From Brevundimonas vesicularis NBRC 12165 (GTDB taxonomy: Bacteria > Pseudomonadota > Alphaproteobacteria > Caulobacterales > Caulobacteraceae): a DNA stretch of 64,000 bases. The position numbers were made by a program, and so were the translations under genes. Positions 11,752-31,202 of this stretch are shown piece after piece (position 1 is the first letter of the stretch; each line of letters starts with the position of its first letter). The notes beneath the pieces are model-generated. The model saw nothing but the letters and a program-made list of their open reading frames with translations. It did not search any database and was not told the DNA's origin. The stretch is from assembly GCF_001592205.1 (NCBI RefSeq), contig NZ_BCWM01000002.1, positions 1 to 64,000 of the forward strand, given 5' to 3'.

Positions 11752-11893
11752 CGCTGATGGCGCTAATGCGCCCTACCCTCGTGCAAATGTGCAGTAGGCG
11801 ACTGAGGCACCGTTAAGTGGTCAGCTAGGTGGTGGCTGTAAAAATCACACGCTTTTTCAGCCAGCGTTTGAGCCAGTCCTAAGTGGTCCCGAC
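11752..11893 (+). repeat. Direct repeat copy B (142 bp), partner at 395-533
   Basis: Same orientation as copy A and 11,360 bp from it over the gapless 94-bp core (11800-11893). It occupies most of the gap 11675-11948, between the NAGGN peptidase and an exported protein. Upstream, GTTAGAC at 11741-11747 is outside the homology. The repeat ends sharply after GTCCCGAC; sequence beyond is unrelated to that after copy A. Confidence 0.75.
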
Positions 11894-11948
11894 AAAACCC
11901 ATATCCGGCACGCCTTGACAGATCGGTCGGTCGTGAACGTCATAGCCT

Positions 11949-18904: not shown

Positions 18905-18911
18905 CCGCCTG

Positions 18912-19054
18912 TCCCCCTCCCCACTTGTGGGGAGGGGGACCGCGAAGCGGTGGAGGGGCTCTGGAAGTCCCACAGACGCCTGTGTTGATTTGAAGAGCCC
19001 CTCCGTCACGGCGCAAGAGCGCCGCGCCACCTCCCCATGAAATGGGGAGGAGAC
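18912..19054. repeat. Palindromic repeat unit 1 (head A, spacer, inverted head B)
   Basis: Head A (18912-18959) is two nested hairpins: CCCTCCCCACTTGTGGGGAG and CCGCGAAGCGG, closing with GGAGGGG. A 36-bp spacer follows, then head B inverted (18997-19054) with CCCCTCCGTCACGGCGC and CTCCCCATGAAATGGGGAG hairpins. Heads A and B also pair with each other through CCCCTCC/GGAGGGG. The unit recurs inverted at 28652-28789 and as a single head at 28239. It is a BIME-like arrangement common between genes in Caulobacterales. Confidence 0.88.
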
Positions 19055-19123
19055 AGAAGCGTCGGGCCTAGTCGCGTCGACGCAACCGCCGTAAAGCTCG
19101 CGTCGAACCTCAGCGGACCCGCC

Positions 19124-25397: not shown

Positions 25398-28079
<2,682 letters not shown>

Positions 28080-28238: not shown

Positions 28239-28290
28239 TCTCCTCCCCATGAAATGGGGAGGGGGACCGCGAAGCGGTGGAGGGGTTCTT
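28239..28290. repeat. Palindromic repeat, single head (5' of DUF559 gene)
   Basis: TCTCCTCCCCATGAAATGGG followed by GAGGGGGACCGCGAAGCGGT and GGAGGGGTTCTT. The outer hairpin is the head-B type (CATGAAATG loop) and the inner one the head-A type (CCGCGAAGCGG), a chimaera of the two heads seen in unit 1. The GTG start of the DUF559 gene lies inside it at 28277. Confidence 0.82.
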
Positions 28291-28642
28291 GACGCACGAA
28301 AGCTCCGTCTCGCGCGCCCGCATCCTGCGTCGCGCCCTGACCCCGCCCGAAGCCCGACTGTGGGTCCACCTGCGCCGCCGGGCGCTGGGTGGGCTGAAAT
28401 TCCGCCGTCAGCATCCGGCGGGCGTCTATGTGCTCGACTTCTATTGCGCCGAGGCGATGCTAGCGGTCGAGGTCGACGGCGAAAGCCATGAAGGCCGAGG
28501 CGGACACGACGCCCGACGCACGCGCTGGCTTGCGACCCAGGGCATTGCGGTCATCCGCGTCTCCGCCGAACAGGTGCGGGTGGACTTAGGCGACGTGCTC
28601 GAGTTCATCGCCGACAGGGCGAGAGACCGAATCCGAAGCTGA
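28277..28642 (+). CDS. DUF559 (Vsr-like nuclease-fold) protein embedded in repeats
   Basis: A 121-residue DUF559 protein with the PD-(D/E)xK-related core: LTPPEARLWVHLRRRALGGLK near the start, then FRRQHPAGVYVLDFYCAEAM (catalytic-type Asp), VEVDGESHE and a C-terminal IRVSAEQV strand. The family resembles Vsr very-short-patch endonucleases, though most members are uncharacterised. GTG at 28277 is within a palindromic repeat head, and 9 bp after the stop another full repeat unit begins, so repeats bracket the gene exactly. A later start inside the gene is possible but would still leave the repeat adjacent. Confidence 0.8.
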   Translation: MEGFLTHESSVSRARILRRALTPPEARLWVHLRRRALGGLKFRRQHPAGVYVLDFYCAEAMLAVEVDGESHEGRGGHDARRTRWLATQGIAVIRVSAEQVRVDLGDVLEFIADRARDRIRS

Positions 28643-28651
28643 AACACCATG

Positions 28652-28789
28652 TCTCCTCCCCATGAAATGGGGAGGTGGCGCGGCGCGCTTGCGCCGTGAC
28701 GGAGGGGTTCTTCACCACATCGCAGCCGTGAGACGTCAAGAGCCCCTCCACCGCTGCGCGGTCCCCCTCCCCACAAGTGGGGAGGGGAC
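28652..28789. repeat. Palindromic repeat unit 2 (inverted relative to unit 1)
   Basis: Head B (CTCCCCATGAAATGGGGAG, then GGCGCGGCGCGCTTGCGCC and GACGGAGGGG) is followed by a ~34-bp spacer and inverted head A (CCCCTCCACCGCTGCGCGG, CCCTCCCCACAAGTGGGGAG). The reverse complement matches unit 1 at 18912-19054 except for the spacer. It separates the DUF559 gene from the 3' end of glyS and may act as transcription or mRNA-end structure. Confidence 0.88.
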
Positions 28790-28799
28790 GATGCGGCCC

Positions 28800-31202
28800 C
28801 TACCCCGCGATCTGGCCGAAGTCGGCGACCTGGCCCATGACGTCGCGGACCTGGCCCAGCAGCTTCAGGCGGTTTTCGCGTTCTGCGGGCACGTCGGAGT
28901 TGACCAGAACGTCGTCGAAGAAACGGTCCACGGGCGCGCGCAGGCGCGCCAGGGCGGTCATGGCGGCGGCGAAGTCCTCGGTCTCCAGCGCGGTCTCGAC
29001 GGCGGTGCGCGCGGCGCCGACGGCGAAGGCCAGGGTGGTCTCGGCCTCGGGCTGGTTCGGAAGGCCGGTCTGAACCATGCCTTTCGGGAGCGGGGTTGGT
29101 TTCTTCTCCTCGGCGCGCAGGATGTTGGAGGCGCGCTTGTAGCCGGCCAGCAGATTGGCCCCGTCGTCCGTCGCGAGGAAGGCGGCCAGCGCCTCCACCC
29201 GACGCACGATGCGGACGAGGTCGTCGTCGGCCTTCCCAGCTATGGGGGCGAAAACGGCGGCGACGAGGTCGTGGCGCTGTCCCCGGTCGCGCAGGAGGAC
29301 GGTCAGGCGGTCAGCGAAGAAGGCGAGGAGGTCATCTGTAACTTGCTTTACCCACTTGGAAACACGCTCTTCGATACGATTGATTTCCCAAGCCGTAGAT
29401 TCAGACACGGCCCCGTCGTCACTCTGCTCGTAAGAAGCGGTGTTGCGCAAAATCCTGTAGCTAGCCACGCTATCGCCGCGAGCTATCCACTCGGCAGCGT
29501 GTAGATTTGGATTGCCAAAGGCGTACTCTGCAGCATCCATGGAAGTAGCAGCCGCGACCAAGCCTTGCGGGACGTCGATGTACCCGTTCCAGACTGGAAC
29601 GATAGCGGACTGGCTGGCGAAAGCTTTATAGTCTTCAAGCTTTCTGTGCTCACCAAAGGCCAGAGCCGCATCTTCGAGTTTGCTTAGGTCAACCTTGAGA
29701 AGCGCAGTCCAAAGATGACCGCTTGTGATCTCACCGAGCGACCCTGTAACCTCATTCTCCAGCACCAACCGGATCACGCCCAGCGCGGCTCTGCGCAGGG
29801 CAAACGGGTCCTTCGACCCCGTGGGCTTTTCGTCGATGGCGAAGAAGCCGACCAGCGTGTCCAGCTTGTCGGCTAGGGCGACGGCGACCGTGACGGGCGC
29901 GGTCGGGACCGTGTCGGCGGGCCCTTGGGGTTTGTAGTGGTCGCGCACGGCGTCGGCGACGGCGTCGGAATGGCCGGCGAGACGGGCGTAATAGCCGCCC
30001 ATGATCCCCTGCAGTTCCGGGAACTCGCTGACCATGCCCGACAGCAGGTCGGCCTTGGACAGGCGGGCGGCGGTTTCGGCCTCGTCGGCGTCGGCGCCGA
30101 CCAGCGGCGCGATCTCGCGCGCCAGGGCGGCGATGCGCTCGACGCGCTCGGCCAGGGTGCCCAGCTTGGCGTGGAAGGTGACGCCGGACAGTTTGGCGTT
30201 CCAGGCGTCGAAGCCGACCTTTTGATCCTCGTCCCAGAAGAAGCGGGCGTCATTCAGGCGGGCGGACAGGACCCGGCTGTTGCCGGCGGCCAGAGCCTTG
30301 CCGCCGTCGGTCGCCTCGACGTTTGCGACGACTAGGAAGTTGGGCGCGAGGCCATCCTTGGACGGATCGCGGACGGCGAAATACTTCTGGTGGACCTTCA
30401 TCGACAGGCGCACGACTTCCGGCGGCAGGGCCAGGAACTGCGGGTCCATGTCGCCCAGGATCGGGGTCGGCCATTCCGCCAGACCCGCAACCTCGTCCAG
30501 CAGGCCGTCGTCATCGACCAGGGCGAGGCCGCGCGCGGTGCAGGCGGCCTTGGCCTGTTCCAGAATGCGCAGCTTGCGGTCGGCGACGTCCAGCAGGACG
30601 AAATTCTTTTCCAGTTGGGTGCGATAGTCGACGAAGTCGCTGACGCGCAGCAGCGCGCCGGAACCCAGGAAGCGGTGGCCCTCGGTGATCGCGTCGCTCT
30701 GAATCCCGTCGATCTCGAACGGGACTACCTTGCCGTCGAATAGGCACAGGATGCGCTTGATCGGACGCACCCAGCGCAGCGTGCCGGAACCCCAGCGCAT
30801 CGACTTGGGCCAGGGGAAGGTGCGGATCACCTGATCCACCGTCTCGGCGACCAGATCGGTCGTGGCGCGCCCCTTGGACGACAGGACGGCGAACAGGACG
30901 CCGTCGCGCTCGGTCAGTTGATCGCGGGTCAGGCCGGTCTTGCGCAGGAAGCCTTCCAGCGCCTGTTCCGGGGCCGAGGCGCGCGGGCCCTTGACCTCTT
31001 CCTCGCGGTCCGGCGTGGCCGTGGGCAAGCCGTCGATGACCAGCGTCAGGCGGCGCGGACCGGCATAGGTCGTCAGCGCGTCCCACGTCAGGCCGGCAGC
31101 CTTCAGCCGGTCGGACACCATGCGGTCGAGGTCGCGCGCGGCCCCCTGCTGCATCCGGGCGGGGATTTCTTCAGAGAAGATTTCGAGAAGAAGTTGGGGC
31201 AT
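28800..31202 (-). CDS. glyS: Glycyl-tRNA synthetase beta subunit with an unusual insert
   Basis: An 800-residue beta subunit of the alpha2beta2 GlyRS; it binds tRNA and includes an HD-like domain and a C-terminal anticodon-binding DALR region (LRAPVDRFFDDVLVNSDVP). The N-terminus [18 protein letters not shown] and FALRRAALGVIRLVLENE are diagnostic. Usual length is about 690-700 residues. The excess lies at about residues 483-624 (29330-29757), between the VIRLVLEN block and LLAFFADRLTVLLRDRGQR; this DNA is about 53% GC, with codon use unlike the rest of the gene, but remains in frame. It abuts glyQ (stop/start overlap at 31202). Confidence 0.93.
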   Translation of the reverse strand: MPQLLLEIFSEEIPARMQQGAARDLDRMVSDRLKAAGLTWDALTTYAGPRRLTLVIDGLPTATPDREEEVKGPRASAPEQALEGFLRKTGLTRDQLTERDGVLFAVLSSKGRATTDLVAETVDQVIRTFPWPKSMRWGSGTLRWVRPIKRILCLFDGKVVPFEIDGIQSDAITEGHRFLGSGALLRVSDFVDYRTQLEKNFVLLDVADRKLRILEQAKAACTARGLALVDDDGLLDEVAGLAEWPTPILGDMDPQFLALPPEVVRLSMKVHQKYFAVRDPSKDGLAPNFLVVANVEATDGGKALAAGNSRVLSARLNDARFFWDEDQKVGFDAWNAKLSGVTFHAKLGTLAERVERIAALAREIAPLVGADADEAETAARLSKADLLSGMVSEFPELQGIMGGYYARLAGHSDAVADAVRDHYKPQGPADTVPTAPVTVAVALADKLDTLVGFFAIDEKPTGSKDPFALRRAALGVIRLVLENEVTGSLGEITSGHLWTALLKVDLSKLEDAALAFGEHRKLEDYKAFASQSAIVPVWNGYIDVPQGLVAAATSMDAAEYAFGNPNLHAAEWIARGDSVASYRILRNTASYEQSDDGAVSESTAWEINRIEERVSKWVKQVTDDLLAFFADRLTVLLRDRGQRHDLVAAVFAPIAGKADDDLVRIVRRVEALAAFLATDDGANLLAGYKRASNILRAEEKKPTPLPKGMVQTGLPNQPEAETTLAFAVGAARTAVETALETEDFAAAMTALARLRAPVDRFFDDVLVNSDVPAERENRLKLLGQVRDVMGQVADFGQIAG

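Follow-up and report, generated by a model that had tools for sequence, protein, structure and literature searches.

The REPIN/RAYT systems consist of inverted two-headed intergenic repeats and of one gene per repeat type, which is bracketed by the same heads. The locus described here, which lies in the window (the whole stretch of 64,000 nucleotides analysed), is alike in that its repeats are inverted, two-headed and intergenic and in that its gene is bracketed by heads of its own type. It is unlike them in its protein, a Vsr-like PD-(D/E)XK protein of the DUF559 family where RAYT has an HUH transposase, and in its heads, which are made of a hairpin and a mirror purine strand. A sequence-only reading of this DNA had likened the gene to RAYT; the comparison is apt as an analogy, but the DUF559 protein is unrelated to RAYT. 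Furthermore, Y1_Tnp (PF01797), the RAYT family, was found in 3 of the 101 genomes of the genus and not in the window's own genome, a distribution that rules out RAYT as the mobiliser in this genus.

The boxC/PIT/TM-ECO repeats of E. coli are similar to these heads in having a purine-motif hairpin with a mirror third strand, in forming some inverted pairs and in being intergenic (PMC4666352), while the heads studied here have longer second loops and often an inner hairpin. Intrastrand triplex formation in vitro is reported for single strands of TM-ECO, not for duplex DNA (PMC4666352). This study is reported to have found no mobility functions in the gene contexts of boxC/PIT/TM and no mobilising gene beside them, whereas DUF559 is the linked gene here, and the triplex repeats thus gain a candidate mobilising gene. 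As to DUF559 itself, evolution experiments with Legionella pneumophila are reported to have revealed a recombination hot spot in a repeated segment that contains both a transposase and a DUF559 gene (PMC12308824). A search of the open-access literature, with most subscription papers and bioRxiv preprints outside it, found no paper that joins DUF559/YcjD with such repeats.

The features of the locus are collected in Table 1. Its gene neighbours are ppdK (start near 28079) on one side and glyS (ending at 28800) on the other. The encoded protein scores 110.5 bits against the PF04480 profile, for a curated cut-off of 20.6, and is thus a member of the family. The sequence-only reading had placed the GTG start inside a repeat head and a repeat unit 9 bp after the gene stop, and both statements hold: GTG 28277 falls within the end of the left head, and the stop, ending at 28642, is followed after 9 bp by the next head, from 28652. 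By eye, an alternative TTG start at 28289, 6 nt after the GGAGG of the left head, is equally good. The third purine strand of this head, GGAGGGG, lies just upstream of TTG 28289 and is a candidate Shine-Dalgarno sequence, which would give the head a possible second role in the translation of the nuclease. On the other hand, the description of unit 2 as the reverse complement of unit 1 needs correction: units 1 (18912–19054) and 2 (28651–28789) do match in inverse orientation, but their arms are just 86% (18976–19055 with 28650–28729) and 88% (18905–18973 with 28728–28796) complementary, and they are therefore relatives instead of exact reverse complements.

Table 1. Positions of the DUF559 gene, its heads and the gene-less unit 1 in the window.
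Feature	Position	Strand	Basis and remarks
DUF559 gene	28277..28642	+	121 aa from GTG; PF04480 profile match, E=4.8e-32
Left head, facing the gene	28239..28285	+	By eye and pattern matches; generic detector: 28240-28285
Parts of the left head			Hairpin CCTCCCC/GGGGAGG; inner hairpin ACCGCGAAGCGGT; third purine strand GGAGGGG, mirror of GGGGAGG
Extra forward head directly 3' of the gene (first half of unit 2)	28652..28709	+	By eye; repeat/pattern match
Right head, inverted; brackets the gene together with the left head	28743..28789	-	Repeat/pattern match, detector, site alignment
Unit 1, two-headed gene-less miniature	18912..19054	.	Repeat match; empty orthologous site in G039 (locus L341)

Within the window, the outer palindrome gives 6 matches at 3 places (0.02 matches expected) and the inner head 3 matches (0.00 expected). 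When up to 2 mismatches are allowed across the 3.36-Mb genome, the outer palindrome has 16 matches at 12 places and the inner head 30, and the reversed patterns of both gave no match in the same search. The window also carries a 96-nt direct repeat (439–534 and 11799–11894, 81% identity, 11.4 kb apart), which is not a head.

In the head types that were read, a pyrimidine/purine hairpin comes first; behind it stands a purine strand that mirrors its purine arm, mostly with a variable inner hairpin in between. Judged by its sequence, this layout is that of the purine-motif intrastrand triplexes (boxC/PIT/TM). Indeed, the strand following 885 hairpins with asymmetric arms near DUF559 was a perfect mirror in 282 cases and a perfect direct copy in 63; overall, the mirror fitted better than the direct copy at 387 hairpins and worse at 148, with ties at 350. 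A single repeat pattern for all genomes was ruled out, because heads are of several types (labelled A to D in this work, by purine arm), and a generic detector was therefore written. It finds 0.324 heads/kb in 2.83 Mb of DUF559 loci, compared to 0.0028/kb in local shuffles of 60 loci. The detector is strict and misses two heads of the window: the one at 28652–28709, since its own purine arm of 8 nt is one longer than that of the head, and the right head of unit 1, of which it reports the left head at 18913–18958 only. Three DUF559 matches are present in the window's genome. The window copy has facing heads by the detector, and so does a decayed copy on contig C8. The third, which begins contig C3 and lies at the contig end, has heads on both sides, but in the same orientation.

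DUF559 occurs in 94 of the 101 genomes of the genus (E 0.001). That its genes would lie nearer to repeats than random genes was run as a test of the earlier proposal, and they do: among the matches listed, a head is found within 250 bp of 91 of 94 DUF559 domains in the genus, compared to 33 of 525 control ORFs, and of 70 of 73 domains (27 of 356 controls) in other genomes of the phylum. The corresponding counts are 66/78 and 19/199 for named GTDB loci of several phyla, among the 80 of 572 listed. A facing bracket, i.e. one head on each side pointing at the gene, was found for 69 of the 94 genus domains and for none of the 525 controls, for 38 of 73 against 1 of 356 in the rest of the phylum (both among the matches listed), and for 43 of 78 against 2 of 199 among the named loci listed (80 of 572). 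The controls are mechanical ORFs of 80–400 aa from the same loci. The genus and phylum loci are the best-scoring among the matches listed and the named loci are 80 of 572, neither being a random draw; the count uses 247 of 258 domains, 11 being too near a locus end, and it includes no domain below 45 bits, a limit that removes, for example, the decayed L003 copy. The sets are not disjoint, as L225 comes from the same genome as L120 and L153 is the same place as one L176 domain, and they contain orthologous sites; Fisher values therefore overstate independence. Removal of the two loci from the window's own family leaves a head near 68 of the 71 DUF559 domains of the phylum set. Outside Pseudomonadota, 24 named loci placed by title, mostly MAGs, come from Planctomycetota, Chloroflexota, Cyanobacteria and others; a head was found at 22 of them and a facing bracket at 13.

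In a test free of any motif, the upstream flank was aligned with the inverted downstream flank. The 95 DUF559 domains scored 43 in the median and the 684 control ORFs 19, with scores of at least 35 at 70 of the former and 9 of the latter. The detector found no head at 18 of the 247 domains, and 9 of these 18 have inverted-flank scores of at least 44. Overall, the association between DUF559 and heads is confirmed, and it extends well outside the window. In addition to what the sequence-only reading had noted, the gene itself is bracketed like a long two-headed unit, the architecture is that of intrastrand triplexes (boxC/PIT), and other phyla are included. In L153 and L176 (both genome G295), the inverted ends of two neighbouring copies are near-perfect but differently designed, with flank scores of 113 and 92. 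At L113:9044–10000, a stretch of 1 kb holds a pair of diverged DUF559 copies side by side, with 48 and 104 bits; detector heads were found at neither, though head-like palindromes are visible around the right copy. DUF559 protein matches are also listed in plasmids (42 records) and phages (3 records).

Heads are found in genomes without the gene as well. G083, G041 and G089, in which DUF559 is absent even at E 10, carry 34, 18 and 6 type-A heads, respectively. Heads thus outlive, or do not need, a resident gene, and a strict need for resident DUF559 is ruled out. The other genus genomes without DUF559 at E 0.001 are G025 and G096, which have weak partial matches together with 5 and 1 type-A heads, and G024 and G013, which have none. 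Three genomes with DUF559 (G048, G064, G087) also have no type-A heads, type A alone being counted.

The AlphaFold2 model of the window's DUF559 protein (mean pLDDT 85) has a predicted Vsr-like PD-(D/E)XK fold with a conserved acidic core. It matches the DUF559 structure of N. gonorrhoeae (3hrl) with Z 17.7. Outside DUF559, its fold is nearest to that of the homing endonuclease I-Bth0305I (PDB 3r3p; Z 13.7, rmsd 2.3 over 94 residues, sequence E 0.008), which is named a "mobile intron protein" in the PDB, whereas the gene studied here is bracketed by folded repeats. The fold is also shared with the Vsr mismatch endonuclease (PDB 1cw0; Z 10.6), which is reported to act in repair after cytosine deamination (PMC12907096) and is known for repair, not for repeats. 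TnsA and Holliday-junction resolvase folds rank lower among the structure matches, and a shared fold is no proof of function. Twelve positions, including E25, FRRQ 42–45, D54, E65, H71 and D78, are invariant in 66 aligned sequences (the window plus 65 of 72 usable named loci), and we infer that the protein is catalytic. The dN/dS values of 0.05–0.17, from 10 pairs of five orthologous or near-orthologous copies, indicate that the gene is under purifying selection.

Facing neighbour heads in the 20-kb loci centred on DUF559 fall into two sizes. Without DUF559 between them, 56 of 66 pairs are 10–100 bp apart, which is the narrow inverted spacing of REPIN-like repeats; with DUF559, 72 of 75 pairs are 300–600 bp apart. 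The left and right heads are of one type in 137 of 154 elements, compared to a shuffled mean of 42 and a maximum of 62 in 2000 shuffles. On the DUF559 tree (102 columns; 125 of the 258 domains, those whose heads are concordant), head type changes 16 times, 5 of them among the 65 genus rows, whereas the shuffled mean is 63.8 and 0 of 200 shuffles are as low, near-copies adding to the clustering. In G044, 13 miniatures have common heads and unrelated outer flanks, and 9 of them (7 exactly) share a subterminal stretch with the right end of the DUF559 element of that genome; the alignment covers these 13 regions out of 20, the 7 of G062 being left out. Non-autonomous derivation from DUF559 elements is the best reading of the REPIN-like repeats.

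These patterns also bear on the view that DUF559 carries out Vsr-type repair and that its genes accumulate as passengers between repeats which are recombination hot spots. The modelled Vsr-like fold would suit such a role, as would the phenotype of Caulobacter VsrA, a DUF559 protein that its authors read as a mismatch-repair enzyme (PMC12907096), and the reported link between triplex motifs and genome instability in E. coli (PMC4666352); the VsrA phenotype might also reflect cutting at other sites. However, hardly any other gene is bracketed, given that only 8 of the 66 facing pairs without DUF559 in the 20-kb DUF559-centred loci are wider than 150 bp, the heads are mostly oriented inward, and head type tracks the protein clade. 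We consider an accumulation of passengers quite improbable.

A search of 16 close genomes for the flanks of four units, E1 to E4, with alignment of some of the sites found, revealed occupied and empty orthologous sites. G039 lacks E1, which is unit 1 of the window, and G009 keeps no more than a short remnant of it. The DUF559 unit E2 is missing in G000, G067 and G055, where its two 150-base flanks match within 345 bp, and in G019, where a lone hairpin is found; other genomes have inserts of varied length or partial matches. E3, another unit with DUF559, was found in G079 and, with 2 stops, in G055; its flanks are contiguous in the other 14 genomes, 7 of which were aligned. E4, a decayed DUF559 unit, occurs in the window's genome only; its flanks are contiguous in 10 of the 15 others and split, displaced or partial in the remaining 5. 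The junctions read at the four sites showed no target-site duplication. Instead, the units take the place of native bases, a few tens at most, which by eye directly follow a stop codon. The elements are like MITEs and their parent insertion sequences in that short non-autonomous copies share their ends with a gene-bearing copy, but unlike them in the lack of target duplication at the four sites read and of any known transposase family. The genes around insertion sites are convergent in 31 of 109 cases, compared to 206 of 978 in the background.

At E2, the two aligned empty alleles (G000 and G055) contain a terminator-like hairpin where other genomes have the element. This, together with the position of GGAGGGG just upstream of the TTG start, would be expected if the heads were regulatory or terminator structures of the DUF559 gene and not the ends of a mobile unit. 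Such an explanation is hardly credible, as it accounts neither for the many gene-less two-headed copies, nor for one head type at both ends, nor for the absence of whole units in relatives.

A homing-type process must be weighed as well, in which DUF559 would invade pre-existing two-headed repeats, cut the unoccupied copies and be copied in by repair, the repeats themselves spreading otherwise. The similarity of the fold to I-Bth0305I (Z 13.7; sequence E 0.008) is in line with it, and so is the glyS site, at which some close relatives have a gene-less two-headed repeat. Among relatives with 96–98% identical glyS ends, G061, G039 and G079 carry the DUF559 unit, G055 a different two-headed repeat and G067 a decayed one. 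Yet the gene-less repeats at this site in G055, G067 and G028 are of a different head type, the aligned E3 and E4 empty alleles are without heads as well as without the gene, and invasion of resident repeats does not predict that the two ends of an element share a head type and that this type follows the protein clade. Homing of this kind is thus unlikely. The different repeats at the glyS site of close relatives could be due to repair at a fragile spot instead of transposition.

The most likely explanation, to which we assign a probability of about 0.7, is that the DUF559 gene makes up a single mobile unit together with the two heads that face it, and that the gene-less two-headed units are its non-autonomous miniatures. 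It draws on sequence comparisons, namely bracketing, the two sizes, the matched ends, the co-variation of head type and clade, the presence or absence of units and purifying selection, and the mobility of the bracketed DUF559 units is well supported. Heads in G083, G041 and G089, where DUF559 is lacking, and replacement in place of target duplication at the four sites count against it. As to the agent, DUF559 as mobiliser of these units is the best explanation. The sequence-only reading had proposed either a mobilising nuclease or a passenger; facing brackets, matched heads, clade co-variation and unit presence/absence favour the former, and we infer that the nuclease acts on the heads. The Vsr-like nuclease would recognise heads of its own type, probably in strands that replication exposes and folded there as hairpin or intrastrand triplex, and would nick or cut at the head. 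Repair would then copy the unit into a new intergenic site, and the insertion would replace a few tens of bases instead of duplicating a target.

The unit and its miniatures thus resemble a type of small mobile element that had not been recognised before. If this is true, DUF559 elements with triplex-type ends combine an enzyme class and a type of DNA end that are both new with an insertion that resembles repair. DUF559, a widespread family without an assigned function, gains a testable one. A broader proposition, which we hold to be slightly better than an even bet, is that DUF559 proteins are the mobilising enzymes of bacteria-wide elements with intrastrand-triplex ends, of which the boxC/PIT/TM repeats of E. 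coli and many bacteria would be the non-autonomous remains; a lone Vsr-like nuclease of 120 residues, acting on folded single-stranded ends with the help of host repair, would then take the place of a transposase.

This proposition is testable in E. coli K-12, which has both a DUF559 gene, ycjD, and the repeats. Triplex motif #9 of Holder et al. (PMC4666352) is situated ~167 bp downstream of K-12 ycjD, and a degenerate inverted head overlaps, by eye, the end of the gene. With 23 copies in 4.64 Mb, ~0.004 copies are expected so near to ycjD by chance, for what is a single post hoc case. The gene is present in 3365 of 5426 E. coli genomes. At the place of ycjD, four ycjD-negative strains (L143:8163–8815, L354–L357) have efflux or regulator genes next to fabI or sapF, and the site is for this reason unusable as a clean empty-site test. 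The eefRABCD operon is reported at the K-12 ycjD place (PMC12817139), and a DUF559 unit in place of an operon would fit a replacement-type insertion.
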